From Galerina marginata (taxonomy: Eukaryota > Basidiomycota > Agaricomycetes > Agaricales > Galerinaceae), in assembly GCA_023014335.1 (NCBI GenBank), contig JAECYW010000023.1:1132785-1196784 (forward strand): a DNA stretch of 64,000 nt. The letters run 5' to 3'. The notes beneath the pieces were generated by a model that saw only the letters and a list, made by a program, of their open reading frames with translations, had not been told where the DNA came from and ran no database searches. Within the stretch, counting starts at the first letter, position 1. Each line of letters begins with the position of its first letter. Positions 30,221 to 62,142 of the stretch are shown here, piece by piece. The translations under genes and the position numbers were made by a program.

Positions 30221-33203
<2,983 letters not shown>

Positions 33204-35665: not shown

Positions 35666-35799
35666 AGTACTCATTGATATACCTATTGCTTATGATGTGT
35701 ATTTTTTTTACAAGTAGTACTGAATGAAAAACAATTTGAATGATTTATCTCATATTAAAATTATTTATAACATCTACTAATATTGAATTTTCCTAGAAT

Positions 35800-36230
35800 T
35801 TCATCCAGAGTCCATATGGAATCCATTCAAAATCCATGGATTTTGTCTGTGGACTACACATGGACAGAGAAAAAACACATAGAGTTGTAAAATTAAGTAA
35901 TAAAGTCCATATGGATTCCACAGAATTGTCCATGGAATCCACATATTTTTTTTGGGTGGGAACTTATGAATTTATAATCATTTGTGAAATCCATGGACTG
36001 TCCATGGATTTCCATGAGATTTCATAATATCCATAACACTGTTTCACTGAATCCACGGACAGTCCATGGAATCAAAATGAGATTCCATAACATCCATAAC
36101 ATTGTCCGTGGAATTATTCTGAATCCATGGAATCCATAGAGTCCACATAACATCCATAACACTGTCCATGGAATTATTGTGAATCCATGGAATCCATGCA
36201 GTCCATACGGATAAGGTGGGGGACTGTAAA
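35800..36230. repeat. Right subterminal repeat zone of the KDZ-type element
   Basis: The mirror of the left zone: repeated TCCATGGAATCCAT, ACATCCATAACA and TGTCCATGGAAT blocks up to the right terminal repeat. The downstream S-D frame is open through part of this zone only by chance. Confidence 0.75.
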
Positions 36231-40173: not shown

Positions 40174-40566
40174 TTACATCTTCATCCCATCTAGACTCAC
40201 TGGGAGTAGTCTAGCAATGGCGTTGGCATAAAATAATGAACATGGAGCAAGTGGATTAGCAATCAATTTTGAAGGAGAAGCAGATGGGAAGAACTTGAGG
40301 AAATCAACAACGGCATGGTTCATTTGGCATACAAGCTGGGGGGCAACTGTAGTAAATCTGATTCTATTTCGCCATTGGAATCTCGAAAGTGGTTGACAAG
40401 TTGCGACCCTGGTCTCCTTAAGCTGACCAATAAACCAAGTTTCACATTCAGGATTCCAAAATCCAACATTGAGGCCTGAGACCAACCAAGCTTTCTCGGC
40501 TGGGAACCAGGAAAAAAGACCGACTTGATCTGGAGAAAGGGTGGTGAATAACAACAAAACAAATCA
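40174..40566 (-). pseudogene. S-family C-terminal exon fragment, cut at the right-arm border
   Basis: The minus strand encodes GLFSWFPAEKAWLVSGLNVG, FWNPECETW and QMNHAVVDFLKFFPS, very close to the last exon of S-D. The preceding intron (to TTCTCCAG near 40535) resembles the S-D intron but is interrupted at 40566, exactly where the inverted-repeat arm begins. The rest of this gene is absent. Confidence 0.85.
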
Positions 40567-40844
40567 CGGAGGAACGTCGAGATGGGCAACGTGCGAGTTG
40601 AGGTTGTTGGGAACAGCGACTCTGGCCTATACCAACTGACGAATCAGAGTGCCTTCCTCTTGCTGAAGCAGGCGACACTCACTGCATGATCCCAAAAATG
40701 ATGGGCTTCCCTCCAGAAAATCCGAATGTGTCTTTCATCGTATTTGCTTGTCAGAAAGTGAAGATGCAGTGTCAAGAAGAGGCAGAAGAGGCTATACCCG
40801 TGTTTATAGAGGAGCTGGTTATGGTTATGTGAGAGGGTTGTCTA

Positions 40845-41443
40845 GAGGGAATGAACCTACATACCACGAGCAAATTTATCCAACTTAACACTAAGCTTGA
40901 CCTCAGAAACACCATAAGTAGCAACACAGATAGTTCCGTCGACATTTCCAACGGCAACAGTGTCGTCATCGACGCCAATTTTCATTTCACTTCATGTCCA
41001 CGCAGACAGGCTTCTGATGTTAATGCCGGTCTTGACGACTTCTTGGTGCATTCTGCCACAGTCGAGGAGTTGTTTTCGTCAATAACTCTGAGTTGATATG
41101 ATACCTAGGTATAGTTAGACATGACTATCACCTTCAAAAGAGAAAGCAAAAATTACTGACAAGTACCCGAAGTCAAAGATGAGGAAAATGGAAGAACCAT
41201 CGGAACTGAAATTCAAATCCTAGCTCTAAAGTGAGAATGGCGGTCGACACGAGATATGAAAAACTGCCACAAACCAGATAAACATCCGACTCTCCGTCTG
41301 ACTTCGCCCGAAATAGCGGTGACATGCCTGAGATCATCTAAACCGAGACACATGAGGAATCTCTTCAAAATGGAGAAGTTCGGCCTAATAATACTTACCA
41401 CCTGTGCAAACCGACTTAGCCCCTGCCTCCAGCGTTCGTCCAT
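40845..41443 (-). CDS. Possible F-box-like protein fragment (right arm)
   Basis: Inverted copy of 20202-20800 with the same reading frames; see that entry for the motifs. On this strand the reading direction runs towards the S-family C-terminal fragment at 40174-40566, but I see no splice model that joins them. Confidence 0.25.
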
Positions 41444-42445
41444 TATTCAAAAAATGTTGAGTTCGGTAGAACCTGGATGAAGAAAAAACATGAGACGTCT
41501 GTTCCACAGCCGATTCGATAGGCTTACTGACTGCCATACACCTCGCAGCGTTATAGTCTACTTTGAATCCCTATCTCAGGGTAGGAAGTAGTTTAAAGTG
41601 TCGAGAAGGACAGGGGGAAGCTCTTGAGTCGGGGTATAGTGAAAACACGAAGAGAGAGCGCGGACATGTCGAGGATCCGGAAATGAGGGATAGATTATTG
41701 GAAGAAGAAGTCCTCCAAGCTTCGATGAACCGCTCTGAACAACCGATGCAACCAGTGAGGTGCTCCAAGCTGTAGGCTAGTTCACTTAGGCCAGAGGAGA
41801 TATTACGACGTAAGCACCGTATGCGACCCGTAGGTGCACTCAAGCGCAGTCGATAGTAAGATAGTAGAGCACCAGCACGGCGGAGGGCCACGCTAAGCGC
41901 TCGAAGGTGATGGAGGAAGATAGAGAAACTGAAAACGGATCCACCGAGGTTTCTGACAAACAAAACCAAACACTGGGAATTGAGACGAAAATCAAATCAA
42001 GGGGATGCATGACGGATGGGCGCAACCGAGCAGGGTATAAGCGTCCTCGAAGATTGATGTTCTTTGTCTGGATGGCGGAATCAGTGGGACTTGAAGAGAA
42101 ACTGATGAGTGTAAGACTTACACTTGGACTTTGAGCAATATAAAGACGAGCGTTGCCCATATTGACTTGACGAATGAGTGGCAGAGCGTCGGGGGAGTGG
42201 GCGATGGAGGTGGGCGATCAAGTGGGCACAAGCTCCCTAATAAACGATTTGGCATCGGAAAAAATGAGTGGCGAAGACATGAAGGTCTTTGTCGGATGTA
42301 AGGCTAGTTTGGGCGACGAAGTGGGCGCGAGGCATTCCAATATCGTGACGGAAAGAAAAGTCACGTCACAGAACCGCCTGAGGACTTTGATTTGGTTTCG
42401 AGAAGGGGCGCGAGGCATTCCAAATTCCTCTTGCGACAGACCACT

Positions 42446-45400
42446 ATGTACGAACGCCAGGAAGCTGACCGTCAGGAAGACCCAATGGACGACCAAGACG
42501 ACGACCATAACTTGAACGTTTCTCGGGCAGGAAGCGTGTATCTTGACGCTGAAGACCATAACTCGAACGCATCTCGGGCAGGAAGCGTGTATCTTGACGC
42601 TGACGACCACAACTCGAACGCCTCTCGGGCAGAAAGCGTGTGTCTTGACCCTGATGATAAGTCTGAAAACGGCCCCATGAGTGCCCAAACGACACCTCGA
42701 CCCCTTCATAGTAAACTCCCCACCAACCCAGCTGCCTTTGCCCTTTCCTCTGGCAGGAATGGCCCCAGGCACCCAATCCATTCCCAAGTGCCAACAACTT
42801 CTCATTTTGGCGTATCCTCCTTCTTGGGCCCACCAGACTCGATCCGCGCGCTCGCCCTGGGCCGAGTACGTTCTCAGATGCCTTCAGCAGCGGGCTTCCC
42901 CGCCTGGGACCCATAACGCAACACCACCCTGATATCAACATGGACATGAACATGGTACTCGGCTCCAATCCTTGGGAAGAGTCGTCCGTTCTCGGTAAGC
43001 GCGTCGAGCACGATAGGCCTTTGTTGTTTTTACCAGATCCGGATTCTCCACTGAATCAAACCAATGCCTTGGTTACGCCGGTAAGCCGCTGTAAAGGACC
43101 TAACAACCTGTCTGGCTGACGTCGAACACCTATAGACTCCAAAGCGTCCAAAGGTATTCAAAGAGCTAGAACCTGTGCCGATTTATCCCACACACAGAGT
43201 TCGCCAGACCAATGCGACTCTGGTGAAGATGAATTCGAAATATAAGACGGAGCTGAATAACCACTTCGATCCGACAGGAACCTTTCAGAAAGGTTTACTG
43301 GCAACATTCAGGGCGGAAGCCGAGTCAATGCTCAACACCGTTCAGCGAGAGCATGAACAGCGCATGCAGAAGTTGGAACATGACTACGGGGTGAGGGAGA
43401 AGGATTTGGAGGCAAAGGCAAAGAGCTTGCATGCGGAAGCAGAGAGGTTGAAACGCGAATCGGAGGCAAAGATGGAAGTGGAGCAGCAGGAGCAGCAGGT
43501 ATCGACGAGGGAACAGCAGGTGGGCCAATGTTGATCGTTCTGGATGGGTCTTGTTGATAAATCCGTTTGCAAGGAGAGACTTGCGTGGTGCACAAGAGGT
43601 CGAAAGGTTGAAGGCCCTCATTGTTCGACAGGTCGAAGAGGCGAAAGAGCGCATTGCTCAAGAGCTCGAAGAAGCGAACGCGAAGGTACGCGTGATTTCC
43701 AACTGTGATCGTTACCGAGCCCATTCAAACTTCTTGCAGAACGCAGACCAAGAAAGGAGACGCGTAGAATTGGAGCAAGAAATTGAAGAGACCCGGCGCA
43801 CGAAGCGTCAGACAGAAAATTTATTGACTGATAGATTGAAAGAGCTCCAGGTCAGTCATAGTGGCTGTGAGGACTGGCAAAAACTGACAACTCACTTAGG
43901 CCAAAAAGGATGAGGAGATAGCTGCCGCCATCCAAAGGCAAAACCGAATGAATTCCGAAAAGGTTCGCCCATGCTCAAATTTCCGCTACCGTCGTCTTCT
44001 TATCTTTTTGTAGGAAAAAAATAAGGCATCATCATCCATGGGGACCAATGGACAGGCCAACAAAGGGAAAGAGCGCGAAGTGGTATGTGTTCATGTTTTG
44101 TCTTCTGCATTGCCTCATGTCGTGCACAGAGTGATGAGGGGCCGCCCTCCAACAAATCAGCGTCGACTAAACCTCCGCCTCGAGATCAGAACTGACAACC
44201 ACCCGATTCAGGAGAAAGCCGTCCTGAAGGCGTGGACGATTGCGAACCATCTGAAGACGAGGTATAAGACAAACGCCCAAAACTTCAGCGCCGCCGAACG
44301 CAGGGCCTAAGCTGGGCTTCTATCAAGAGCAAAAAATCAAAGCAGTACGCTCAGGAGCGACCGGTCCTTGAGGCATCGGTACGTCGTATTGAAATTTCAA
44401 TGGCGCCTGCTAGATAAAATATTGCAGGAAGCAGTCGACGAAGACGTTGACATGAGTGAACCAGAAGGAAAATCCAACGAGACCGACGACGGCGAATCCA
44501 ACGACGGCGAATCCGACAATGACGACGAGGCACCGCTAACGTTGGGAGCACTGAAAAAATTATTGCGAGAAGTCCTTAAAGGACAAACCAAACGCGGTGG
44601 CCGCAAATCCGATACCATTAGAGGCCGACGATCCAAGGTAAACCCCGTAGAAGAGGAAAAGAAAATGGATGAAAAGTGGGAAAGAGCCAGCTACTGCGTT
44701 CGTGTTCCCCTCGGCCATTGAAACCTCCATTGACCCTGACCGATATATAGCGCTTGGTTGGAACAGTCATGAAAGGGATGTTTGGAATTGAATCCGTGGA
44801 GGAGTACGCCGTCCACGAACCACCTGAATCCACACATGTCCGGCACTTTGATCGAGAAGAACAAAATGGGCCTGATAAAGATGACCTCCGAATCGATGAG
44901 AGACAAGATCTCATCGGCCTGGAATACGAGAGTGATGGAAATCCTCCTTGATGCCGTGTTAGAAGGAAAGAGGAAAGCAACAGCCTGGGACGATCTCCCA
45001 GACCGTTCCGATGATTATTTGATGGAGATAATCCAGGATCAAATAGAACGCGCCCGGACAACCTGGAGGAATGCTCAACCAAAACTCCTGGAATCTGGCG
45101 AGGTTGAGAGCTTGAATGAGGTTGAAAAGAGGATGATAGAATCGAAGGAGGTCACGGAAAAGATGAAACGAGCGAACATGAGGCGCATCCACGTAAGGTT
45201 TTCGATTCTTCATGTCCTATGGAGTGTCTGAAGGCCGTTGTAGCGACGTGACCGTAGGGTTGAAACAATCAAGCGCACGATCGAGAGAAAAAGGGATGAA
45301 GGGGCAACCGACATAGCGATATGGGAATGGTTGGAAACACTGGTTACGCAACTCGGCCCCGAAGGTATGAGCTCTGACGAAAGCGACATAGCGGCATGGA

Positions 45401-45704
45401 GGTCCTCTATGTCAGATCCCTCAATTGGCGAAGGAGTGCCGAAAAGGAAATGGATTTCATCGACAAGCAAAGGAGAACCGACAGGAAATTGTTCTCCAAT
45501 AAAGGTAGCAAACCCACTCTTCGGCTGCGGAAGTCCGGACATGGGAATACCGGGCGAAACCCGCCGAAAGGAAAATCCAAGAGCCTCTTCGACAAGCACT
45601 ATTTGGCCAATCACAAGAACGTGAAAAACCTGAAGCTGAAGAAGGGCGACGGCGAGAATCTGCAATGGCTCAACATCGGAGTCCATTCTATGTTAAGGAA
45701 ATGA
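42446..45704 (+). pseudogene. M-family coiled-coil protein, copy B' (right arm)
   Basis: Mirror image of copy B, in the plus direction. Motifs in order: MYERQEADRQEDP, three 51-bp repeats (42509-42655), PKRPKVFKELEPVPIYP, a coiled coil through EQEIEETRRTKRQTENLLTD, and ALKKLLREVLKGQTKR. After these come IEIIQDQIERARTTWRNAQP-like MEIIQDQIERARTTW, GMSSDESDIAA and DKQRRTDRKLFSNKG. It shares the 2-bp loss in DLRID and the frame break near 42910 with copy B, so the lesions predate the duplication. The stop is at 45702-45704. The GTCCT hairpin array follows immediately downstream. Confidence 0.7.
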
Positions 45705-45934
45705 GTTCGAGCTTTGTATTTGCCTAAGTCGATACTTACCCTGAATACATCGGGATTTACGATGAAGATAAGCGCATAACGGAAAGTAAGACGTCAGAAG
45801 GGACTAGAAGAGAAAAAGTAAGCACAACTTTTCAAATGAAATAAGGGCGGAAAGTGACTCACGGTAAGAGGGTAGGGAGTGGTGAAAACGCAGCAGCAGA
45901 TGGAGAAGTTCGTAGTTAGTAGGAGAGATAAAAT

Positions 45935-46240
45935 TAATGCGACAGTCCTCAGAGCCGTCTGTAGGACCGTCTTCGTCGCGGAGGGTTGAGGGCCGACAGT
46001 CTTCAGAGCTATCTGTAGGACCGTCTTCGTCGTGGAGCGTTGAGGGCCGTGGCCAGGAGAGAACGAGACGAGCTCGTGCGACAGTCCTCAGAGCTATCTG
46101 TAGGACCAGTGCGAAGAGAAGTCCTGCTTGACAGTCCTCGGAGCATCACGAGGACCGAGACCAATGCGTGTAGTTGACGTTGAGTAATCGCCATAAAATT
46201 CTTCTTGAAATCAGGCCGCAGATCGGTCCTGCTTGACGGT
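45935..46240. repeat. Hairpin array, GTCCT/AGGAC arm class (right arm)
   Basis: Mirror of the unit B array: palindromes near 45944, 46000, 46084 and 46134. The arm identity ends at 46240 inside the last, so this array has lost the outermost hairpins that unit B keeps at 15235-15404. Confidence 0.8.
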
Positions 46241-46970: not shown

Positions 46971-48485
46971 CTGAGTGCTCGGTTGGGGTGCGTCAAGCGT
47001 GGAGCCGCGTGAAGGGAGAAGGTAGGAAGTAGCCAGAGGCCGGACGACAATACGGCTGTCCATGTAGGAAGATGGTGAGCAATGAAGTGCGAGTCTGCGA
47101 CGGTGTTTGGGAGAAATGAGAATCAGAACGCGAGAAAGCGTATGAGGTAATCGTCGAACGTTCAATTAAGCGTCGCAAAATACCAGCTTCGCCCAGAAAG
47201 AGGATTATACCATCGTTCTACGCATAGTCAAATAGTCGATGGAGGGAATAGATATAAATTTGAATCGCATTAACAAAGCGTTGCTGTGGGAGGACCAGAC
47301 GATCGGCCATTTGGTTTCTCAGTGACACATCGAGGGGTGGGACCTATGAAAGTAGAATTTCTACGTATCAAATACAAGAGAAATCCTTCGCGAATTCGAC
47401 ATGAAATTGGGCTTAATAAGCCTGGAGATAAAATCGGTGGATGAGTTGGGGTACTGCGAGGTTGATGGAAAGGCCTTGCCAGCATTCGATGTAGTAGATA
47501 CAATCGAAATACATACGCTGCCGACGAGGACAGTTCGACAGACGTTCAACGGCGGAAGCTGGGTTCAGCTTGTATTGATGAACAACGTGCAAGTTCGCCG
47601 CATTCAGTTACCTTCCAAAATAGCCAGCAGGAAAGGAGAATCATGTATTATATACAATGGTTCTCACCAAGTAGGAGGCTTAGTGGTTGGTTTCAATTAC
47701 CAAGACACCGCATGAAATGAAATCAGTGGGCGACCAGAGCGGGTTAAGGGAATAAACAAAAAGAATGGAAAAGGTCGCTGGCACGGCAAGCGAGCGACAT
47801 ATGCCTGAGGCGATGGGCAGATCCAGATCCAACAGTAATACGTGCGAATTTCTATGTATCATATACAACAGAAATCCAGAGTATATTCAATTTACAGGAT
47901 AAGATCGAATTTTGTGAGCATATGAGAACTGGGAGCAAGAGATTATTATAAGTAACAAAGTGTTCGAATGAAGACAAAATGTACGTCGAAATATTGCGTA
48001 ATTCCTGGCCAGTCTGCCCATGCGACCGCATTCTAGCCGTCAATAATGCCCTTGACGATAGCCAATAAGAGTAAGGTGGTTTGAACAGCTAAATTAGTGC
48101 AGAGTGCGATGGGTGAAGCCGGGCGGTAATGGTCGAATAGCTGGAACAACGAGTGGGGCAAGGTTTGCTGTGCATTGATACAACGAACATCCTGGTCGAC
48201 GGGACGCGCTTTCGATGTATCAGATACAAACGAACTCGACAAATAGGTAGGCCAGGTAGAAGCAAACCGAGTATCAATGCATGGGTTCTCCGGCTGGTCT
48301 TTGGGTGTAATTTCGCTGTATCAGAGACAAGCGAAAGACGTGGGCGACGACAGTGGGCGACGATAGCGGCGAAAAAGGAGGTAGACGGGCGCAGCTAAAA
48401 AAAAGAGCGAATAATGTCAAAAAGATAGGAAATAAATGGGAATAAGACAAAAACCATCGACGCCGACGGCGCGATGGAGACATAC
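46971..48485 (-). promoter_or_regulatory. Long hairpin leader E with 5'-UTR intron
   Basis: On the minus strand: a 5'-UTR intron 48485-48395 (GTATGTCTCC to TTTTTTTAG), then a leader of about 1.4 kb with six hairpins at 48336-48311, 48234-48211, 47875-47848, 47663-47638, 47510-47484 and 47384-47357. All keep a TGTAT/ATACA-like collar with a 1-5 nt loop. The outer arms differ (TTTCG, ATTTC, GAATC, ATTCG) but remain complementary within each copy. A plus-strand ORF (47401-47715) overlaps the leader and is probably fortuitous. Other introns in this long leader are possible. Confidence 0.65.
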
Positions 48486-48553
48486 CTACTCTGGTGGAGG
48501 GACATGGCGGTGGTACTTATTGATTGGGGAAAGAATCAAGCCAAGTTCATGTT

Positions 48554-48581
48554 TGTTTGGCCGCAGTGTTGTCGCTAAACA
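48554..48581 (-). promoter_or_regulatory. 28-bp inverted-end element of unit E
   Basis: Starts TGTTTGGCCGC and ends GCTAAACA as read on the plus strand. Same length and ends (one mismatch) as in units A, B and C, 69 bp upstream of the UTR intron donor. Confidence 0.5.
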
Positions 48582-48652
48582 AAGTGACGCCAACGCCCCC
48601 AATTGCAAGTCCCTCGGGCCCTTGAATCCCGTTTAGTGGGCTACAAGCCACG

Positions 48653-48762
48653 TTCATCTGGACCTCTCCGATGAACTGGCTTCCTCTCTGACCTCTCCGA
48701 TGAACTGGCTTCCTCTCTGACCGATCCTATCAGACAGCTTTCATCTGGACTGCTCCGATGAA
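48653..48762. repeat. Hairpin array, TTCAT arm class (unit E)
   Basis: Palindromes 48653-48675 and 48740-48762 (TTCAT/ATGAA arms around TGGACCTCTCCG and TGGACTGCTCCG). Between them is a half copy at 48681-48703 duplicated in tandem with its neighbour, and a GATCCTATCAGA variant near 48722. Confidence 0.75.
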
Positions 48763-48929
48763 TGGCTCCTTTGCTTCCCATTATGATCACCGACCCTCGC
48801 ACCCCGCACCCAGTTGTACCGAGCGAGCAACAAAAAAGAGTACGACAACGATGAGGAGGCAGCAGTCCATACAGCGCCGATCTGCCATCCCAACCCACTC
48901 ACTCTGCTGCCGTCAATCCCGTCTTCCCT

Positions 48930-49470
48930 CACACGGACATCAACACTCTCGCAACTAGTTTCAAAGCCGACAATTTTATTCTAACTCTCTCAACATATAT
49001 CCGTCGCCTCATCCCACCCCCTGCTCTTCCTGTATCTCCCAACATTGTGGACCGCTTTGATGTCTACAAGCGTATCACAATTTCTCAACCTTCAAATCCA
49101 GCACCTGGATTTACGAAATCCGTCGAACGACTTCGAGCGACGCCTTTAGTTCCAGCCAAAGGTCGATCTAAATCACTACCCGCATATTTTGATACTGTGT
49201 TCGTACGCATGGCGGACGCCAGGGAGAATCAACATACCCAAGGGGCCTGCTTGGAAGGTCAGTTAGTCATCCTGGAATCTCTCGTTCAAATATCCAATGC
49301 AATCCGTAGGACTTCGATTTTTGAGCAAGTCTTCCAGAGCACCTCCGTCACACTCGTTTACCCAATCGTCTAGCCTACGTCGAATGGTTTACACCCTTTT
49401 CCGCCCCGCATCCCGATTCTGTCCTCTATCCTTTTACTCGCGCTTCATGATCACGGAACAATGTACAACA
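48930..49470 (+). pseudogene. CACTA/Plavaka-type transposase C-terminal domain fragment
   Basis: On the plus strand: SFKADNFILTLSTYIRRLIP, DRFDVYKRITISQPSNPAPG, ERLRATPLVPAKGRSKSLPA and FDTVFVRMADARE. After a GT-AG intron (49259-49310) comes PNRLAYVEWFTPF, the signature of this C-terminal domain. It corresponds to 12448-11942 of P1 but with the frame intact over most of its length. No core domain lies upstream. Confidence 0.75.
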
Positions 49471-49702
49471 ACAACCACCACCACCTTACCCGCTGGTGCT
49501 GTTCCGGCCACCTGTCGAGCTCCGGGCCCTCGACAGTCGTCGTCAGCATCATCGTAAGCTCAGTACCATTAGGCCGTCCTAGTGAGGTTCCGTACACACA
49601 CTAAAATCCCATTTTCAACCACTCCAACATCGAAAAACCCCAGATCACTCTCTGCCACGTATACAATTCTCAGCTACTTTCAACATTCTATTAACACTGA
49701 TC

Positions 49703-50518
49703 ATGTTCTTTTGCCCACCATTTCAACCTCGTCTTCCACTTCCTGAACGCCGTTCGCCTTCGAGAACATGGAAATCTATACGTCGTATCAGTATCTTTCC
49801 TCACTATCGCCCAAACCTTCCAACATCCAACGCCTCATGTGCTCGCTTTCGCTTATGGAGGAAGGACTTTACAGCAAGGGAAAAGCAGCTAACTCAGTTC
49901 AAGGCCCTCGAGGAGAAAATGTATAGACTAACCGACGATGCTCACAAGATCAGAGAGCAACGATGTGCTTTGTTTGTTCTGCGCGCTGAGGTCCACAAGA
50001 TCTCTGTTGCACTTGAACAACTTAACAAGGATCCCCAACCAGTGTTGCTCACCCTAATGGTTCGAGAACCAGCTGTGAAATCCTCATTCAAACTTCGTGT
50101 TCATGTACACAACATTACCTCCGATTTCAATCCTACATATCTCGAGCTCGAGTCTCGCCCGTCTACACCTATTTCACCCCCTCCGACACCGAGTCTGACA
50201 CCTAGTACTGCACCACCATCCCGTCCCACCACTCCACCACCACTAATGGTCGAAATTTGCACTCATTTCCCTATTGACGAAACAGCAACACTTTATCATG
50301 GCCAAATCGAAGATGTTACAGACTCCTGCTACCGTGGAGGTTGGTGCTACAGAGCTCTTCGCAATTCTCTCAAAAAACGCAGACCCGGTCAACCCCCCGA
50401 ATCAGACGACAAAAACCCAAGCATTAGCTTTTCAACCCTTATTCACCCAGTATCACGGTCATATTATATGTACCCCAATGGTTTTCGCCCTTGTACCCCC
50501 TCCAGCCTCTCTTTTTGA
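49703..50518 (+). CDS. Hypothetical ORF with a helical region and a PT-rich linker
   Basis: An open frame of 271 codons. It has a coiled-coil-like segment (REKQLTQFKALEEKMYRLTD), a PPTPSLTPSTAPPSRPTTPP linker and a C-terminal piece. Another frame (50274-50525, MTKQQHFIMAKSKMLQTPAT) overlaps the 3' end, so a frameshift or intron is possible. No family is recognised. It may be an accessory ORF of a decayed mobile element. Confidence 0.4.
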   Translation: MFFCPPFQPRLPLPERRSPSRTWKSIRRISIFPHYRPNLPTSNASCARFRLWRKDFTAREKQLTQFKALEEKMYRLTDDAHKIREQRCALFVLRAEVHKISVALEQLNKDPQPVLLTLMVREPAVKSSFKLRVHVHNITSDFNPTYLELESRPSTPISPPPTPSLTPSTAPPSRPTTPPPLMVEICTHFPIDETATLYHGQIEDVTDSCYRGGWCYRALRNSLKKRRPGQPPESDDKNPSISFSTLIHPVSRSYYMYPNGFRPCTPSSLSF

Positions 50519-50898
50519 GTGTTAGGTTGTAGAAGGATGAACGTTTACACTTCCGCACCATATTCACACATATTCACTCAACCACTTGGTCTATCGAGGT
50601 TATTCTTTTTAGTGTAACCTGAGTCTCCTGTAGACGTAGATAGATGTCAAATCGTAACAATCGCAACAACGGACCAGTCAAGTCTATGACAACCTGCCGA
50701 GCCCTATGATGGACCAGCAGAACCCGTAATAAAGGCCAATACCACTCAGTTGCAGCCAGTTGTATGGCTGCTCAATTGTAGACTACAAAACTTATAATGT
50801 ACTGACTTGACATTTAGAACAGAGAATTCACTTAATAATCACACAAATAGAATGTCCTCGGTACTAGAAAAGAAATTGTATACAGAGTAATAGTACAT

Positions 50899-53800
50899 TT
50901 AGATAGAACCACACAGCTGGGTACCAAAGCGAGAATGACACAGAACCACCAATGTCGTTAGTCCTAAGAAGAATGAGTTTATATCCCAAAAGCAAATGAG
51001 TGAAAAACATACACGGGAAAGAGTAAGAACAACAGTTCTTGTATCATCTAAGTTCCACCGAGCACAATGTGATACGACCCACTCAGGACGAATACGGAAG
51101 AGCTCAGGCGATAGGGCTGGGGAATAAACCATTGCCGGAAAGTGAGGATAATGGCGAAATGGGTCGACAGACCCCGGAGCAGCAGGTAGTTGTTGGCGAA
51201 CGACATAGTCAAGTTGACCATTCCGCTGTGCGACAATGTACTCGATGGAAGCAGGAACAAGGGCGCCTGACATCTTGCCATCTGGGCGATACATGATAAG
51301 ACTGTTGCCGACATGTGTGCTTGAACGGGAAAAGAAGACGCCATTAGACTGGTGGCGGGCCCGTAGCGCTACTTTAGGATCATGGAAGATGTTTTTCAAG
51401 GCAGGGGGAACGGGCAGGTAAGCAGAGTCGGCAATGTCGTCGTTGTCGGATGTGCGCATAGCATTACCGGCAAATTTGTCGAATAGAGTCTTGCATTCCT
51501 TGATAAACGGTGGGCAATTTGGACGGGCGAGCCAGTGCTTCAACTTCGCAGCCTTCGAATAATAGGTGAGCATGGTGGCTTCCAATTCACCTACAAAAGA
51601 GTCAGGTTGATTCTTAATTGCGATAAAATAGACTTACCAAATTTATGGTTATGAGGAAGACGCTGCAGCTGGCCAATCAGACGTTCAAATGGGAAGCACC
51701 ACCAGGAACGTACAGGGCCAAACAGGCGTAAGAAGTCAAAGATATGGAGCACCATATGGCAGTTGACACGGGGTTTAGTGTCAGGATGAAGGACCGTAAG
51801 GTTGTGTAGCCAGAATTTCATGTGTGTCAGGTAGGCGTTCGATCGAGCTTCAGTCATCGTGCGCATACAAGCCAATGTGATGGCAGAGACCAGTGCCATT
51901 GTGTGGTCAAGGGCTTGACGCAACGACAAAGCAACCGAATGAACACTACCTTCTCCCCATGTGCTAATAAGAGCAACAGGAAGGTAAACAGTGGCCAAGG
52001 TTCGCCATTCATCCGCCTTTAGCGTACCCGCAGCTGGCAAGCCAAAGTTACGTGGGACAGAGGGAAGCCAAGACGGAGTAGCCATATCACGAATGACTGC
52101 TCGGATATGGTCCATGACTTCTGGAGTCCCGAATTTGACAGGTGCATTGAGCATTGTATATGGATGCATCTTCCGCTGAGAGATAACAGGGTTAGCTTGA
52201 ATCGAGACCACAACTTATGGGTACATACCCAATCCATCAGGAGCTTTACATAGGAAGCCTTACTCGCACGTATGGTTGTTGGCAGCTTTAGGCCAAGGCT
52301 GCTAGAAACAAATTCGAGTGCTTTGGAGTTTTTCGAAGAGAGACGGCGTTCCAAGGTCTTCAGATTGTCTTCTAAGGTTTTGGTATTCGGCTCATCTTGA
52401 CCCTCTATCGGTTCCAATAGGCGTCTGTGGATGTGAGGGATGTGCTTCAAATCGTTCTCAGATACATCTTTCCGATCCTTGAAATCCTTGCCTGGTTCTG
52501 TGAATTTGTGTTCGAAAGCAGGGACAAATTCTGCCTTTTCTGTTACTTCCCTCAGGCAAAGGACATCCCGAAAATGAAACTGGGCCAGGCCCAACAAAAG
52601 ACAGTGCATTGAGTCGACGACCAACATACGGGGTGGATCCCAATACGGAAGGCGCCATACTTCAGACCATCGGATACCGTTCGCTTGAAAAAGTTTTTCT
52701 TGGTCTCTGACAGTAGGGGCATCTCTCCAAGCCTCGACTTGACGACGAAGCTGATCCCGGTCTTTGGGTTTCCAATCAGCGGCTTCAACATCGGTCCTCC
52801 CGAGAGTATCTTGATGATAGCAGCGGCAGCGGCTGCAGCAATGGTTACTGCTGTGATTTGCCGATTGGTTGAATTTGCGTGCAGCTGGAAGGTCATTGAC
52901 GGACAAAGCTATTGCACAGCGAGTTAGTCTTCCATTGGGGTAGTTGGCCGTGCGTGAAAAGTGTACGCCGCGTTCCCAAGAAACCAAGAAATCGTCAATT
53001 ACCGGACGAAGGTAGTGGTTAAGTTCTGTATTGTGTGGTTCATTTGGGCCAGGGATAACACACGCGACATATATATTCTCGGGCTTGTAGCGAACACTGA
53101 AAGGGAGGCTGAGGCACACCGCCGATATTATCCCACAAGATGCAGAGGCTCCTCTGGGTGTCGAACCTTCAGCGCTGAAAAAATCAACATTGATTGCAAA
53201 AAGGTAACGGCCTTCAGTACCGGGCCTATCGACGAAGAGGCGGTTCCCATCCGGACCTTTGAAGGTACGAATGAATTCCGCTTGAGATATATCGGTAACG
53301 TAGGCCGGAACCGGTTCACCCCTATTGATCGACGCCATCAAGTCGTCATTGGTACGATCCGCCATGTTTTCCAGATCTCCCTGTGATATGAGTCCCCCGA
53401 GATAGTCGTGGAAACTATGATAGATAACAGTTTTCAAAGGTTTGGCGCCTTCGTCAGGTTCAGAAAGGGCCGTCTTGCAAATATCCGAGTCAGGAGTGGG
53501 GCGATTACTGCATTCACGAGGATATGAGGGGACAGCTGACCCTAGAGCAAAGGTGGGGGGTATGTGCAGTGACAACTCGGACAAACTGCGTTGGCAACAG
53601 TCATGGGCTCCAAGTTAAATCTAGCCAATGCGGGTTCGAGGGTAAGGGGTATTTGGTCGATAATGTACTGTTGATTGATGGTAAAACTTCCTGATGGATC
53701 CCGAAAGGCGCAGCGAAGCATTACTGAGAGCAGACCCAGGATAAAATCTCCCATGCGGCGACTGGCGCCCATGATGACTGCGCAGACGACTGAAATGAAC

Positions 53801-54686
53801 ATGGCTATCTGGGCGACCTGGTCATGACGATCAATTGGCATATTAAAGTGATGATCTGTGGAAGCACAAATAAGAAGAATTTCCAACCATGTCTGCAGGA
53901 AAACCTTACCAGACTTGAACAGAAGTGGTACGCTTTCATCCACAGGTATTGCCTTCCGAACTTCGACGAAGCGGTCGTGAAGATCGGCGACAAATTTAGT
54001 AACGGTGGCTTTCGCCGTGATGACTGAATGGACACTGCGCGTAACGCTCTTAAGAGACACTTGCAGTTGAATCAGTTCGTGAATCAGTTCGGCTTCCACG
54101 TGGGTCAGAGTCTCAGATGAGGGCGACAAAAGTTTGGCAGAACATGTTTCAGCGCGCTCCTGGATGGCTTTGAGGGCCAGGTGTGCTTTCTCGGTCTTGC
54201 GATTTCCCTCGCGTTTTTCCAAACGACTCTTCATCTTGATCAGAGGAGGGGGCTGGTCATCATTCTCGGTGTTCTGGGATATAATGTCGGGGGCAAGATG
54301 CAGGAGATCGCCAGCCTGGGGAGACGGGTCCGAAATCTGAAGATTCTGAATGCCGGCAAGAATGTCGTTGAGGGGAGGGGGTTCAGCAGCCGCAGGTACT
54401 ACTGGGCACGATCGTTGATATTCATCTCGTGAAACCATAGTTTACTGGGTTGTCTCTCGGTACTGAGGCCGCCGTCCGCTAAAGTATCGGCGAAAAGAGA
54501 CGACGCGGCTTCACGAACGGCCGCGAGGCGAGACTGCTCAGTTTCAAGCTTGACACGATTGAGGTGAGCGATACGCTCCGATGCTTTCAGCGTTTTGCCT
54601 AAAGATCTACCATCGGGTCCAACAGGGCCGGAACTTGTGCACTCTTGACAAAGGCACTGAAAAACTGCATTGCCTCGAGCAGGCAT
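50899..54686 (-). pseudogene. CACTA/Plavaka-type (Tnp2-like) transposase P3, nearly complete
   Basis: The start is MPARGNAVFQCLCQECTSSG at 54686. Next come FLEKREGNRKTEKAHL-type helical sequence (RLEKREGNRKTEKAHLALK), MGASRRMGDFILGLLSVM and CPSCHCTYPP. The core at 53584-52019 has AEFIRTFKGPDGNRLF, VIPGPNEPHNTELNHYLRPV, VNDLPAARKF, CCSRCRCYH and VVDSMHCLLLGLAQFHFRDV. Later exons hold VRSWWCFPFERLIGQLQRLP and VVLTLSR. One base appears to be missing in the run of C in the TYPP motif (near 53560), shifting the frame; a 1-nt homopolymer error could cause this. A break near 54430 may be an intron. The separate FDVYKRI domain is absent. Hairpin leader F lies directly upstream. Confidence 0.8.
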
Positions 54687-54699
54687 ATCGAGTTAAATA

Positions 54700-54932
54700 G
54701 TTAACCGCAGTACGAGTTTTGAGTTCTATGTACTGAAACAATAGAACTCGAGCCCAACTTCGACAGCGCAGCAGGATTTCTATGTATTTGATACAAAGGA
54801 AATGAAAGTCGTCCAAAGAAATTGCCTTAGCAAAGTAGAACCGTGTATGAATACAACAGTTCCAACTTGAGCGAATTTCGTTGTATGCGATACAGACGAA
54901 ATGGGTGGGCGACGACGGCGGGCGCTGCAGCT
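54700..54932 (-). promoter_or_regulatory. Hairpin leader F upstream of P3, truncated
   Basis: The minus strand carries four hairpins: 54902-54875 (arms ATTTCG/CGAAAT), 54861-54838 (AACCG/CAGTT), 54803-54776 (ATTTC/GAAAT) and 54749-54721 (perfect 9-bp arms GAGTTCTAT/ATAGAACTC). The first 100 bases match leader C closely (GCTGCAGCGCCCGCCGTCGT shared). The leader is cut at about 54932, where copy C of the M family begins in the other direction, so its UTR intron and promoter are missing. Confidence 0.7.
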
Positions 54933-54934
54933 AC

Positions 54935-57750
54935 CCAGCAGGACTGCGTTTAAATTCCGACTTGATCATGACACTATTCCTGATCCTGACCCGTTGGTTC
55001 AAAAGCGGGGCAGCTCCAGTGAAGTGGTAAGCTAGTGGAGAGGCTTCCACTGAACCTTCTAGTCTGACCCATCCAAGGAAATCACAAAGCGCATGAGAAG
55101 GGATGGTCCACCAAACCACAAATTGCATTCGGCAAATAGGGTCCTCAACCAGCTGACAGTGACTCAAAAGGAGCAACTCCTCCAACAGGAGACGCGGATG
55201 CGGGTATTCCAAGAAAAGCTCCAAAAGGAGCAGTCGAAGAAGATCGAAAAATTCCAGGAAGAGCTAGAAATGCAAGCACGTCAATGGGAAGACAAGAGGA
55301 CACGGGAATTGGACGCTAAGAAAGCGGCGCTTGATGAGATGACAAACGATGCTCAAGCAGTATTGAGGAGTGCTCAAGAAATGGGAAAGCAATGGGAGGC
55401 GCGAACAGCAAGCTTGAAGGAGAGTAGTGAGAGGGAAAAGGATTTGGAGTTAAAACTGGACCAGATAAAGGTGTGTTTCATTGAGCTTGATCGGACAATC
55501 TCAATTTATCTCCAGCCAGCATGATAAACAACGAGCGGTTGAGGCCGCTGAGCTTGCACGGAAGGAAAAGGAAAAAGAGGCGGCCCTTGCTCGGAAAAGG
55601 GAGGCTGAGGCTCTTGAAGCAACTAAGCTAGCTAAGGAAAAGGAAGAACAGGCGGTGCTTGCCCAGAAAAGGGAGGCGGAAGCAGAGGCGAGAATCCAGC
55701 AAATTGAAGTGAGTCAAATTAAATTCTCTGCTTAGCCTTTACTAACGCCTCGGTAGCGAGAGAAGGCACAGGCTGTGAATGCGGTCGCCATTGCTGAACG
55801 ACATGAACAGGCCGCAAAGGCAGCAATCGTGCGTATGGAGGTAATTTTAATCATAGTTCCATACTCGGATGGAAATTGACAACCTGGTTAGGAGGAACGG
55901 AAAGCGGATGCTGAGAAGCTGAAGAAAGAGTGGAAGGACAGATTTGAGCGTCTTCGGGTGACTACTCTGGCTTGAACCAATCTTGAACATGATGATTGAT
56001 GCTTGATGCAGGCAAGTAGCGAGCGCCAAATGGCAACATTGATACAAAAAGTCGAGCGACTCCATGGGCAACGAGTAGGTGACTCGAGCATTTGCTGTCC
56101 ATATCGATCAAGAAGTAGCAAGCGATAAGCATATGGGAGACGAAGTCATTGAAGAAGATGCAGGACGAGGACAATCTTCGGCCACATCATCCAAGGCACA
56201 GAATCCATCCATATCGGCCAATAAATTGGCTGGAGCCAACTGGAAGGAAATTAGACACAAGGAGGGGGCCAAAACATCGACTGTGTTGGTTGAAGCCTCT
56301 GTGGGTGTCATCATTCTATTGTCTTGTCGTGCGTTGCTGACAGAAAACAGGATGACGATAACGACCCCGTCAATGAAGATGTCGAAATGGACGACGTAGA
56401 TGAGAGACGCCGCAAACGGCACGGCAAACGCAGGCAAACGGGCAGAAACGACGGTGGAGAAGGAGATGAGGAGAATAATGGCGACGACGACGACGACGAC
56501 GATGACGATGATGACAGCAACACAAAATCGTCACGCATGACAAAGGAAGAATTCCAGGCGATGATTGGCGACGTTATGAACGACCTTGCAAAAAGGTTGA
56601 CCGGGATATCGATCCGGAAGGCCAAATTCACCAAAGGTCCCCAGAACTCTAAAAAGCCCACCAGCGCGTCTCGCAAAAGGTCTGCGAAAGGCCGACTGGA
56701 AGAGGAGAAGGATAACGATGAGACCTTTGAAAGGAAAAATTATCTCGTCAGTGATTTCCCGATTTATCTAGCCAGCGAATTACTTACAAGGAATATAGAA
56801 CCTTGCCCGACAAGTCAGGGACGACTGCTTCAGCGTCGATGCTCTCGAAGATTTTGCTCTGCACGACCCACCCGAGAAAGATGCTGTTTGTCTCTACAAC
56901 GACGGAAAAGGTCCAGGGCCAGATGCAGCGGATCTTCGCATCGACATGAGAGGAAAGATTTCGTCTAAATGGAATGTCCAAGTGCTTGACCTCATGGTTG
57001 ACCTCATGCGCACCAAGTTGCAAACTGAGGCTTGGGAATCGCTTCCCTAACGCTCAGAGGCCTATCTTCGCGACCTTATCTATGACCAAGTGCAACGTGC
57101 AAGGACAGTTTGGAAGGATGCCCAACCAAAAGTCAAGGAGGATGGGCAGATCGAAACCGTGAACGAGGTCGAATAGAGAATGGTCGCGAGGAAGAAGGAA
57201 GTGGGAATGCTTGGGCGCGCGACATCGAGGCGGATTAGTGTATGTGCTTCAATACCTCTTCTTCGGTGAAGCTGACGCATTTTTTCAGAGATACGCACGT
57301 CGCATCGAAATTATTGGGAAGACTATTGCGAGAAAAAAGGAGCGAGGAGACCCAGATGTCGAACTCTGGGAATATATGGAGAAATATTTCGAGCTGCTTG
57401 GAGATGAGGGTATGAGCTCGGACGAGAGCGACGTGGATGAGGCCGGAAATGAAGTTTACTACGTCATGGCAATGCCGTGGCGGCGCAACATCGAGGCGGA
57501 GCTGGAGATCGTCGACCGACAGCGGCGCAAGGACAAGGAGTTGTTCTCCAACAAGGGAGCAAAACCAGGGAGGAGGATACGGGACGGAAGGAAGAATTCC
57601 CGAAGGACACCGGCTCCAGAGCTCCCTAAGTCCCTCTACGAGAAAACCTGGTTTGCTGCTCTGTCGAATGAAGGAAAGGCCAAACTTCAGATCCGAAAGG
57701 ATGAGTTCCATGTCAGGAAACTTCGACGCAGAGGCGGATCAGCTGCTTAG
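54935..57750 (+). pseudogene. M-family coiled-coil protein, copy C
   Basis: The 5' end is truncated: similarity to copy A begins at the GGACTG at 54941. Coiled coil: KEQLLQQETRMRVFQEKLQK and AARKEKEKEAALARKREAEA-like repeats. An acidic Asp run (56483-56515) follows, then RMTKEEFQAMIGDVMNDLAK, LRIDMRGKISSKWNVQVLDL, IYDQVQRARTVWKDAQPK and NEVE-stop-RM. The TAG at 57174 replaces the CAG found in copy A. After it the conserved domain is intact: ARKKERGDPDVELWEYMEKY, GDEGMSSDESDVDEAGNEVY, MPWRRNIEAELEIVDRQRRK. The lesion differs from those of copies A and B. The hairpin array and S-C follow downstream. Confidence 0.75.
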
Positions 57751-57867
57751 GAAGGAGGTGGTAGAATAATCGGTATTTAGGCGATACACAGTGAAGAAAT
57801 TAAACATACCTGTTGTAAAGCTTGACTATGGAATGAATTAACAGTTCGAATCATCACCGGAGAGGGC

Positions 57868-58075
57868 CAGGTGATAACCGTTTGCCGATGGCACCAGTGG
57901 TGCGGAATAAGTATCACCAGAGCTATCCAAGTGATATTTATCAACGTAAAACCCAATCCAGAGCGACCATTGGTTTGGAGGAGGGAAATCCGTTCATCGG
58001 ACCTGTCCAGATGAACGGTGCTTGGTGGTTTCGGTCAAAGATACAGCCAGTTCATCAGAGCGATCCAGATGAACT
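57868..58075. repeat. Hairpin array, TATCAC and TTCAT arm classes (unit C)
   Basis: Palindromes 57912-57936 (TATCAC/GTGATA), 57993-58015 and 58051-58073 (TTCAT/ATGAA). They have the same core and order as the unit A array, in inverse orientation. A weaker CACCGGAGAGGGCCAGGTGA copy lies near 57856. Confidence 0.8.
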
Positions 58076-58124
58076 TGGCTTGTAGGAAGGGAAGACATCG
58101 AGGACTTGGCCAAATGCGTCGTTT

Positions 58125-58152
58125 TGTTTGGCGACACCCTCGTGGCCAAACA
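58125..58152 (+). promoter_or_regulatory. 28-bp inverted-end element of unit C
   Basis: Begins TGTTTGGCGAC and ends GGCCAAACA, exactly 28 bp, 93 bp upstream of the UTR intron donor. Confidence 0.55.
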
Positions 58153-58244
58153 ATCAACCCGAATCATTTCTATTCTCAGTTCAACTTCCTCCGTCAAATC
58201 CACCACCACCACCAAGTCCAACATCACATCACTGACACTGCTGG

Positions 58245-58580
58245 GTATGCTTCCATCGCGTCAATTTCTTTGTGTTTTACATCTTACTCACGTTGTTTTG
58301 CGTTTTCTTTCAGCCGTGCCCGCTTACCGCTGCAGCGCCCGCCGTCGTCGCCCGCTTAGTTCGTTTGTATCCCATACAACGAAATTTGCTCAAGTTGGCT
58401 AACGCTTGCAGCACCCGCCGCCGTCATTTTGTTTGTATTGCATACAACGAAACGTGCTCAAGTTGGAACCGTTGTATCCATACACAGTTCTCCTTCGCTC
58501 AGGCAATTCGCGTCCTATTGGCCAGGACTTTTCTGGTGTAGATAATCTGAAATTGTAGCTCCATCTCACAGTACTCAATT
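58245..58580 (+). promoter_or_regulatory. Hairpin leader C with 5'-UTR intron, upstream of S-C
   Basis: A 5'-UTR intron 58245-58313 (GTATGCTTCC to TTTCAG), then three hairpins: 58360-58383 (TTCG/CGAA arms), 58427-58452 (TTTTG/CGAAA) and 58466-58490 (GAACCG/CAGTTC), all with TGTAT/ATACA collars. Each of the first two is followed by GCTCAAGTTGG. The S-C start codon is at 58581. Confidence 0.75.
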
Positions 58581-61500
58581 ATGTGTAAGTACTCACATTG
58601 ATCTGACTACTTTATCAATTCTAACCTCCTCGATCTCTCCGTCTAGCCCTATCAACTGTCCCAAAACCGGCGTCATACTTTTTTCGCGATCGTTTACCAA
58701 ACTACCAGATGATGTGTGATGGCCATGTCTTTACCTCCCCAAACCAAGAATCTTTGCCACATCCGCTTCCCCTTGATACTGAACTTGGCCCAATGCCGTC
58801 TCCAGAAGAACTTCGATGTCGCGTTTTGGGCAACACCGACCACCCCATATACCGCGTTCATCTTCAAAACGCCCTTATTTGGTCCTATGATGGGTCGCTT
58901 TGACAAATACAAGATCGAGAACGATGCTCATAACTGGCATTTGCCCCGAAACACCTGCAAATCGTGGAAGCGGTTTGAGCACGGCATGCGTGATGCTGCG
59001 GCGAAGCTATCGTCCCTTTTCTTTTCTACACACCCTGACTTTCGACCCTTCTGGGATATCCCTCAAAATCCTAGTTCCTACGGCTATTTCGATACCCATG
59101 ATTCTGAACAAGCGGCTCTTGAAGCCGTCACTTCTTCAATTGACGGTTTCATCGTCTTTTCGGGATATCTATCCTTTCTTATCGCCCTCTGCCGGTTTTG
59201 TCCCCCATCCAGGGGCCCTTTACAAACCACAGCAGAGTTGTTTAAGTCTGCTGGCGTCGAAGTACACCCCGAGTGGATACAGGGTCTTCATGATTCGGGT
59301 ATCGGCAATTTCAGTGTGGACCAACGGTCCCGCATAGGATTAATCGTCAAGATTTCCGATTGCAATTGGATCAACCTGGTACCCATTGTAATCAAGGCCA
59401 ATGTCTCGGTTTGGCTCTTCTGGGGTAAACCGCCTTTCTCGATACCTCGGCAATCCTGGGTGTCAGACTTGGAACCAGCACCTTTTTGGACACCCTTGTC
59501 GACCCCGCCCGAGCATTCTTCCTCATCTGCGCCCAATCAACCCTCCTCGTCAATCCCAGGTGGCTTTCCTCCTGTTATACCTGGAAGCGGTCAGCGACCG
59601 GGGGAAACAATACGGGCATTTCTGGCGCGTCATAAAGAGAAAATGCACGAACCCTTTTAGAGGAAACGAGGCAGGAGAGGCAGATACGATTGAATCGTCA
59701 GCTCGCGAATGCGAATCATCACAAACCTGGTAATAATGGTGCCAGAGTGTATCGCTGGGTGGACGTTGACGGATTTCGCATTAGAAACCCTTCTTAATCG
59801 TGATTTGGTTGAGGAATACTGGTTCGAGTGGGGTAAATCGCAGCGGAGGTACGACGCTTTTTCAAACCAGTGGGACTGTTGCTCAGACCTACCGTCCGAT
59901 TCCGATGACGAGGACGATGTGTATCGGATGCTTCTTCCACAATATTGCCCATAAATACAAAACGAAGAGCACCTCAATTGAATCAAAGATCATCTCCCCC
60001 TGTTAAGGCTACATCTGATGTGACAGTCAACACATCGTCTGTCGTTTCGCCGGAGGTTTCACTATCGTCTTCTCAATTTAACCACATTGCCGCTCCGTCT
60101 GTCGAGTTCGGTTGCTCTGCAGACCTCCCGACACCTCTTTCCCGATGCCACCTCCAGCTTCCTCTTCACCTCCCAGAATGGCACCTGATATGTCAGTTGA
60201 TGCACCACCTGAGGTCTCAGTGGAAGATCCCCGGTACCTTCCGCACCGTGAGGTTCCTGGGCGAGTCTCGTTCTTCCAGTGGCTCTTCATCGAGAGTTCT
60301 TGTCAGTAATGCACCACACTCGCCAGGTGTGGCACAATGTCCTCCAGCGCCTCCTCCAGTGACATCACACGCTTCTCTTCCACCTCGTCGTACAACGCCT
60401 GATGTGGTACTTGAGCCGCTGGCTGAACAGGGGTACGATTCGAATGGTGCTCGTGTTGCGTGGTCAACAAACGACGACGCCGACAGCTATGACCCTCTCC
60501 GCAACCTCAGTGGAGGACGTTATTGCGGTAAATCGCTCCACGCAAACTAAGCTCCCACCGCCGCCGTTTCAGTCTATCGAGGATATTGTCTACTATAGAT
60601 ATGGCTTCGCTTTCAATGAAACTACATATGATGGTCTCCCACCATATTTTGATAAAGCCGAAAATCCCTTTAATCACTGGACAACAGTCTGCCATGCTGT
60701 TGGTGGATATGGTCTCTCCTCGTCGACTGCCAACCACCGACCTATAACGGATTTCCTGGTGGCTCTGCCTCAATTCCAAGCGTCCGTTCCATGATGTTCC
60801 TGGGATGTTCTGGGACTTGAGTCCTGCAAATGGCGAGCAGCTGAAGGATTTAGAGCCGAAGTGTCTTACTATTGAAGTCAAGGAGTTCCAAACCGGAGTC
60901 CTCTGCCTCCTCCACCCTCGTGCCTCAGACTCTGTAGAGAATCCGCCGTGGGTGGTTGCTGTTCCACCTATAACTGCCTTGGAGTGTATTCGGCGCGACC
61001 TTGGACCTTCTTCGATTGACATCGCCGAGTATCTGATGGAGCAAGGGATGCCATTTAATACGTTACTTCCTTTTGAGCGTTGCTCAGGCTCATCTCATCG
61101 TCCGCCTCAACCTCTGGAACGCCCACTCCTGGGGGACCGGTCAGCTGGGCACAACTTTGACCGTGCTGATTCCGCGGCATATGCAACACTTCGGGACTCG
61201 TTTTTACTTGCTCAGCATAACAGTCGTCGGGGCCCTTTCCTTGGTGGTATCATTGCTCGCTTGGCCAGGAATGTCCTGCCAGACTCCGATATTCTTGCCG
61301 GTCCCTCCTCGAGTGCACGCAGAGGGAGCAAATACTTTTTATAAGTGGGCAGGAGACCATGGTTGATGATCAACTCTCGGAGGAGGAACTGGATTTGATA
61401 TGTGGGACCTACAGAGTAGCAACTGGAAAGGGCGGTAGGTATCTCTATTACTGGCTGTCTCCCACCTGACTAATCCCTGCTGTTTATTAGCCCAGGACAT

Positions 61501-61638: not shown

Positions 61639-62142
61639 GAGGACTTATCACTCCCCCACCTTTTCCATACGGATTCCATGGCTCCACACAGATCCACATG
61701 GCATCCATGGAATCCATACTGGTCCATGACCATTTTATTTTGGCAGAGAACACAGCCAAATTGGGAATTTTTTCCACGGATTTTCCATGGATTTTTCCAT
61801 GGAATTGTTGAATTTTGTGGTTTCCATGGACTTTTTTCGAAGGATTCCACGGACATTCCATGGACAATCCACAGAATAAATATAAATTTAATTTCCATTG
61901 ATTTTCCACACCCATGTCCACGGATTCCACGGAATGTCCACAGAATTTCCACAGAATAATATTTAATTTCCATGCATTTTCCACAACCAATGTCCACAGA
62001 TTCCACGGAAATCCATGGAAATTCCATGGAATAATATAAATTTAAATTCCATGAATTTTCCACATGAATTCCATGGATTACTAATAATTTATCCATGGAA
62101 TCCACGTGGAAATGTCCCCAATTAATTATTTAGTGGCCTTAA

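Follow-up and report, generated by a model that had tools for sequence, protein, structure and literature searches.

The stretch of the Galerina marginata genome analyzed here (hereafter the window; 64,000 nucleotides (nt) of contig JAECYW010000023.1) contains genes of a tnp2 (EnSpm/CACTA-like) transposable element. Three of its units, C, E, and F, carry arrays of small bulged hairpins with a fixed inner collar (TGTAT/ATACA) and covarying outer arms, and a fourth such leader (unit G) was found elsewhere in the genome. On balance we favor the reading that these arrays are a shared 5′-leader module of multi-gene tnp2 element genes, which would act after transcription through a putative factor. 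The evidence comes from the structure of the hairpins and their change between copies, from their position in ATG-poor leaders, and from the occurrence of a different hairpin class at related genes.

Hairpins with a Fixed Collar

All 13 hairpins that a preliminary description had placed in the leaders of units C, E, and F are present there. The TGTAT/ATACA collar, described as common to all of them, is exact (TGTAT, 2–3 nt, ATACA) in nine, at 47644, 47855, 48216, 54783, 54844, 54882, 58366, 58434, and 58473; three others (47364, 47490, 48317) have one collar mismatch, and in hairpin E4 the collar is degenerate and the outer arm long. In the register adopted here and along the gene strand, each hairpin consists of an outer arm, one extra base, TGTAT, a loop of 2–3 bases, ATACA, and the second outer arm. 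The extra base directly 5′ of TGTAT is T in 31 of 32 distinct sequences and C in one, and in C, E, F, and G it is always on the same side with respect to the gene. The inner register does not fit one of the 32 (hairpin G2 of the C11 copy), and in computed minimum-energy folds the unpaired base moved in some copies. The outer arms differ: TTTCG/CGAAA, TTTCT/AGAAA, GAAC.G/C.GTTC, AAAGCA/TGCTTT or GAAGC/GCTTC, TTCAG/CTGAA, and AGTTCTA/TAGAACT were observed.

Unit C holds hairpins C1 (58358–58385), C2 (58426–58453), and C3 (58465–58491) on the forward strand. Hairpins E1 (54875–54902), E2 (54837–54863), and E3 (54776–54803) lie on the reverse strand; these six were located by collar pattern and covariance model, and both C3 and E2 have GAAC/GTTC arms. 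E4 (54722–54748) and the six hairpins of unit F, also on the reverse strand, were located by the model: F1 (48310–48337), F2 (48209–48236), F3 (47848–47875), F4 (47637–47664), F5 (47483–47510), and F6 (47357–47384), of which the last is deleted in the C40 copy, as seen on copy comparison. The model was built from 12 of the 13 window hairpins and includes the extra base. With it the scores of the 13 range from 21.9 (E4) to 40.8 bits on the gene strand, and none exceeds 19.5 bits on the opposite strand, a contrast that is partly by construction.

The pattern TGTATNNNATACANCGAAA has 29 matches in the 69.3-Mb genome and none in a reversed control. For a 28-base pattern in which up to two mismatches were allowed, 54 matches were obtained, again with none in the control; all are on the contigs C11, C12, C14, C16, and C40. 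A unit resembling G on C11 (L001, 3 kb) has two model hairpins, at 40 and 17.2 bits. No Rfam family matched the window at gathering score, in agreement with the earlier remark that no described fungal leader family of this kind was known.

Covariation and Change Between Copies

Covarying base pairs, suggested on first description, were confirmed among copies within this genome. In an alignment of 15 hairpins (12 of the window, with E4 left out, and three of C11), 90.6% of cells are paired against 75.4% after shuffling, and the covariation score is 0.389 against 0.145, a value reached in none of 500 shuffles. For 18 representatives of the 32 distinct hairpins, 95 of 108 arm positions are paired with the hairpin's own partner arm; the highest count in 100,000 swaps of arms was 90. 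Neither control takes the relatedness of the hairpins into account. The claim that the arms stay complementary in each copy needs correction for C3, whose AACCG/CAGTT arms contain a C·A mismatch in the window, at a site that is C-G in the diverged C11 copy.

Compensatory double changes were found between orthologous copies in two hairpins. F1 has C-G in the window and T-A in C40, and G4 has A-T in C14 and G-C in C40. Stem changes of the G·U type separate the copies of F3 and F5, and in C1, C3, and G5 one orthologous copy has a mismatch where the other has a pair.

The hairpins also change less than the rest of their leaders. Differences fall at 5/83 hairpin positions versus 31/169 others in unit C (window against C11; p = 0.005), 1/110 versus 6/135 in E (p = 0.10), 7/143 versus 88/1146 in F (p = 0.15), and 6/111 versus 90/667 in G (p = 0.008). 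Pooled over the four comparisons, 19 of 447 hairpin positions differ, against an expectation of 39.2 (odds ratio 0.40, p = 0.00017). The comparison of unit C between the window and C40 (1/83 versus 8/182, p = 0.17) goes in the same direction; it was kept out of the pool, the window C leader having already been used.

Arrays of this appearance could in principle arise with no selection, by tandem duplication of one hairpin and template-switch (quasi-palindrome) correction, which would copy arm changes and mimic compensation. Such a process treats both strands alike, which fits the G·U and A·C counts given below, and arm changes can come in blocks (TTT/AAA versus GAA/TTC). We consider it unlikely: the hairpins are more conserved than the spacers, the extra base has not been corrected away, and a different hairpin class occupies the same place in the two C17 genes described below.

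Leader Position, Introns, and ATG Content

Units C, F, and E (E being intact in C40) share an upstream architecture. GTTCATC/GATGAAC palindromes come first, then TTTGTTTGG..CCAAACAA, then a short first exon and an intron of 69–92 nt predicted with GT-AG borders; after the intron come the hairpins and then, in C and E, the start codon. In unit C, on the forward strand, the promoter- or operator-like GTTCATC..GATGAAC palindromes lie at 57984–58085 (similar ones are found upstream of E in C40 and of F), the predicted 69-nt intron of the 5′ untranslated region (5′UTR; GTATGC...TTTCTTTCAG) at 58245–58313, and the leader with three hairpins at 58314–58580. On the reverse strand the unit E leader with its four hairpins occupies 54687–54931, next to a proposed start codon at 54686–54684. 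In the window this leader is cut on its 5′ side at 54931|54932; the C40 copy retains the promoter, exon 1, and intron. Unit F, also on the reverse strand, has TTCATC..GATGAA palindromes at 48641–48765 and a predicted 91-nt 5′UTR intron at 48395–48485. The placement of the hairpins after a 5′UTR intron and before the start codon, as first described, therefore stands for C, for E in its C40 copy, and for the two C17 genes, the introns being predicted; unit F is not a clean leader.

The leaders of C and E are free of ATG. Counts run from the splice acceptor to the start codon, with expectations from shuffles. No ATG occurs in the C leader of the window (267 nt; 3.2 expected, 1.8% of shuffles equally low), of C11 (272 nt; 2.75 expected, 3.6%), or of C40 (273 nt; 3.2 expected, 1.7%). 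The same is true of the E leader in C40 (260 nt; 3.4 expected, 1.2%) and, counted from the junction, in the window (245 nt; 2.9 expected, 2.7%). The loops point in the same direction. A G as first loop base would create an ATG and is found in none of the 32 distinct hairpins, which are not independent sequences; a C as last loop base would create an ATG on the other strand, and it is present in nine of them.

The sequences at 54907–54931 and 58329–58353 were considered as a pair of terminal inverted repeats (TIRs) and rejected. The repeated GCTGCAGCGCCCGCCGTCGTCGCCC is the leader start right after the splice acceptor, as the upstream part is seen intact in C40. A CATCGCGCCGTCGGCGTCGATG hairpin, which differs by base changes from unit to unit, lies close to the 5′ splice site within the 5′UTR intron of F (window), E (C40), and G (C14).

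Host Element and Its Genes

The host is a tnp2 (EnSpm/CACTA-like) element. Gene E, which extends approximately over 50899–54686 on the reverse strand in several exons, encodes the tnp2 transposase (PF02992, E = 7.4e-8 in the open reading frame (ORF) at 52019–53614). Gene C encodes a long protein and extends approximately over 58581–61344 on the forward strand, from the proposed start ATGT|GTAAGT to the end of the last long ORF. No Pfam match was found in three ORFs of the gene or in its paralogue in the window, and no PDB relative of the paralogue was better than E = 0.59. On C14, C16, and C17, a homologue of gene C is found 4–17 kb away from a tnp2 gene.

The C40 copy of the element spans 23,225 bp (3575543 to 3598767). 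Its ends are inverted over 512 bp with 96.9% identity, begin with CACATCGGGGG, and are flanked by AAA/AAA, a 3-bp target site duplication (TSD) seen in this one copy. They begin CACAT where CACTA or CACTG was looked for; the class-2 relative described below begins CACTG. This is the only such pair found, two further single ends matching with three mismatches, and the window's own copy does not carry ends of the C40 type. Units F, E, C, and G are all present in the C40 element, with hairpin arrays of 5, 4, 3, and 5 model matches, respectively. The tnp2 match of this element (L024) has two TGA codons inside.

Repetitive subterminal motifs are a known feature of CACTA elements, and the arrays might accordingly be regarded as transposase-binding repeats needed in cis for mobilization. 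We consider this highly improbable. In C40 the arrays start about 1.9 kb from one end and about 1.65 kb from the other and are thus internal, and the 512-bp TIRs contain no match to the covariance model. In the class-2 family, two derivatives with intact TIRs and 3-bp TSDs carry none of the palindromes. Subterminal sites were rejected on these grounds (internal arrays; derivatives without palindromes) for both the class-1 (TGTAT/ATACA) element of C40 and the class-2 family.

The window lies within a region of nested and inverted copies. A 5,684-bp unit occurs in the window twice, inverted and 99.9% identical (40557–46240 and 15405–21088), and further inverted copies of the region are found on C12 and C14. 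Arrays of palindromic repeats (TCCATGGA / TTCCACGGA) lie beside a gene-C paralogue (35780–36230) and again at the window's right end (61770–62112). An ORF at 33131–35461 has cysteine clusters of the CxC5 and CxC6 types, which are associated with KDZ transposases, and a second transposase ORF of 559 amino acids was identified at 23642–25321 (Transposase_21 above the cut-off, Plavaka below it).

A Different Hairpin Class at Related Genes

A tnp2 gene on C17 (L028; 56% identity) also has an intron followed by a leader with repeated hairpins, which are of another class (class 3). Their collar is GTGT/ACAC or GCG/CGC and their arms are TGCC/GGCA or GCCC/GGGC. The leader has one ATG in 609 nt, where 9.6 are expected. 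If leaders are shared within an element, the gene-C homologue of C17, about 17 kb from this tnp2 gene, should carry the GTGT/ACAC class and not the TGTAT/ATACA class. This expectation was formed before the sequence was inspected, and the homologue does have the hairpin class of the tnp2 gene in the same leader position. Its upstream kilobase (L052) contains a promoter palindrome of the L028 type, a 53-nt intron, and four hairpins with a GTGT/ACAC collar and CGC/GCG outer arms; the 402-nt leader is free of ATG (3.1 expected), and the unusual start ATGT|GTAAGT is identical to that of unit C. We infer that both C17 genes belong to one element.

A class-3 cassette is also present in the window on the reverse strand, with a predicted 72-nt 5′UTR intron at 14926–14997 and leader hairpins at 14664–14871 (collars at 14860–14871, 14742–14753, and 14664–14675). 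Palindromes of the GACAGTCCTC..GGACCG type were seen in the window at 45938–46107 and 15245–15450, the second set being upstream of this cassette, and are also found upstream of both C17 genes.

Fifteen upstream stretches of other tnp2 genes were surveyed; the genome has at least 76 tnp2 match pieces, and most tnp2 loci thus lie outside this survey. Class-2 arrays were found in three stretches (L034, L036, L037) and class-3 hairpins in one (L028), and scans of the remaining 11 showed no array; five of the 15, L028 included, were rescanned at a lower threshold. A single weak match to the class-1 model (20.5 bits, E 0.09) was noted in one of these 11 (L039:921–952). A transposase search for relatives in other fungi, made on proteins only, scored 7996 candidates, of which 481 passed.

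Palindromes of Another CACTA Family

The class-2 arrays belong to another CACTA family, with the TIR CACTGCTGGAAGGGG, and were seen in four copies, on C10 (L034), C25 (L036), C29 (L037), and C12 (L045). A TIR CACTGCTGGAAGGGGAATATTCTGCG was also noted for this family, with end pairs 16.4–17.2 kb apart on C10, C29, and C4. Own arms of the internal class-2 palindromes (TGGATNATCCA) pair at 104 of 108 positions in C10 and C29 together (permutations, at most 99); in C10 alone they pair at 59 of 63, which was reached by 37 of 100,000 permutations. The palindromes lie upstream of a CT-rich stretch and a conserved intron-like piece, and ATG occurs within the first three of C10. Given this position and the ATGs, a role as a second leader class is doubtful; judged from their sequence context, these palindromes are probably promoter elements. 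The two non-autonomous derivatives of the family (658 bp and 5.0 kb) gave no matches to the palindromes, so that movement in this family does not seem to require them in cis.

RNA Hairpins or DNA Sites

The class-2 palindromes bear on a further explanation, in which the hairpins would be DNA-level palindromes that lie in the transcribed leader by chance and serve as sites for an element-encoded DNA-binding protein, a regulator with a TNPA-like effect. The collar would then be the contact, and the arms would reflect a cruciform or dimer symmetry. We regard this as possible, though not probable. As in a dyad operator, the fixed part is the stem collar and the loop is free; operator-like palindromes are present upstream in the same units (C, E of C40, and F); and the class-2 palindromes combine a fixed collar with covarying arms in a possible promoter. 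G·U and A·C intermediates, moreover, are about equally frequent in class 1. Against DNA sites, the extra base by the collar breaks the duplex dyad symmetry of the arms and not the pairing of a hairpin, and ATG is avoided on one strand only. That the extra base keeps to one side of the gene's hairpins throughout C, E, F, and G is a further point, though copies of one cassette would inherit this.

Several observations count against a leader module working at the RNA level. A need for pairing in RNA alone would predict more tolerance of G·U than of A·C on the gene strand, and the 8 G·U versus 6 A·C distinct events (terminal pair left out) give no clear sign of RNA-specific tolerance. In class 2, G·U and A·C events (about eight versus four) do not help in telling RNA from DNA, and the arms of these palindromes also covary (score 0.410 versus 0.179, reached in 0/500 shuffles; 21 rows, one duplicate of 22 being left out). 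The hairpins have modest energies (−1.4 to −11.1 kcal/mol), and those of the opposite strand are similar. By eye only some six outer-arm types can be distinguished, so that independent events are few, and pair-breaking changes between copies occur in C3 of C11, in G4, and in C2 of C40. Unit F is not ATG-poor, with 20 ATGs in the 1,424 nt before the proposed start against 22.3 expected. The class-3 leader of the window has three ATGs in 444 nt (6.75 expected) and reads ATT at the place where L028 has its start codon, and the C11 copy of unit C has lost the canonical donor GT. Among the 15 other tnp2 upstream stretches, only L028 has a leader array of this kind.

These comparisons do not prove that selection acts on RNA and not on DNA. 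The initial interpretation of pairing-preserving changes as a mark of selected secondary structure is upheld by the covariation and the compensatory changes, and is weakened by the 8:6 count and the class-2 palindromes, which leave the RNA and DNA levels unseparated. The extra base, the one-strand avoidance of ATG, and the lower rate of change in hairpins together argue against both duplex DNA sites and template-switch correction.

Proposed Mechanism

In the reading that we favor, the leader module would work as follows. Each gene of units C, E, and F has operator-like palindromes upstream, a short first exon and a 5′UTR intron as predicted, and then the small bulged hairpins, which in C and E lie within an ATG-free leader before the start codon. 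Transcription and splicing are predicted, and the hairpins would exert their effect in the spliced mRNA. The fixed collar and its bulge may be read by a factor acting in trans, possibly a product of the element itself, and the outer arms would need only to pair. Each element would have one hairpin class, TGTAT/ATACA in units C, E, F, and G of C40 and GTGT/ACAC at the C17 tnp2 gene and its gene-C neighbor. The translation or stability of the mRNAs of an element could in this way be set or coordinated, and kept apart from those of other elements.

A bolder proposal, which we advance as speculation and hold to be rather doubtful, is that the elements of this tnp2 lineage each code for a regulator that binds RNA and targets the element's own leader hairpin class. 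Hairpin and regulator would co-diversify, and each element family would have a private post-transcriptional regulon covering the genes of the element.

The control of eukaryotic DNA transposons is usually placed at the level of DNA, chromatin, or small RNAs. A hairpin leader common to the genes of one element, with another class at related genes, would mean that elements carry a post-transcriptional regulon of their own. The repeated copies in one genome are a natural mutational series for direct reporter tests.

Comparison with Known Systems

The host resembles EnSpm/CACTA (CMC) elements in its tnp2 domain, inverted ends starting with CAC, 3-bp target duplication, and long second gene. It differs in the hairpin leader cassette common to several genes of one element; to our knowledge, no such cassette is known before several genes of an EnSpm/CACTA element. 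A thin literature search at the level of titles and abstracts found no description of such leaders. The words "hairpin," "subterminal," and "untranslated" are absent from the main text of a 2025 paper on fungal DNA transposons (PMC12730594).

A parallel at the DNA level is provided by the sites of TNPA. In Spm this element protein acts on repeated subterminal DNA motifs of its own element and regulates Spm. The hairpins are likewise repeated motifs of their own element; the TNPA sites, however, are subterminal DNA, whereas these are internal and lie in leaders.

Structured leaders of transposase mRNAs occur in bacteria. The transposase mRNA of ISPpu9 reportedly has a structured 5′ leader (PMC8450116). 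That of IS10 has a structured leader with fold-back inhibition. In both, secondary structure in the leader affects expression, and leader structure is predicted here as well. The bacterial structures serve one gene, whereas in G. marginata arrays of small bulged hairpins, with element-specific collars, are common to several eukaryotic genes.

The coat-protein hairpin of phage MS2, in which a loop and a bulge are read by a phage protein, is similar in its short stem and in a bulged base on the 5′ side. The MS2 reader is encoded by the phage itself, whereas an element-encoded reader is only putative here. One hairpin serves in MS2; here there are several copies, and the loop is free while the stem collar is fixed. 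If the hairpins and their regulators do co-diversify, these leaders would be to transposons what RNA operators are to phages, with a code that can be switched.

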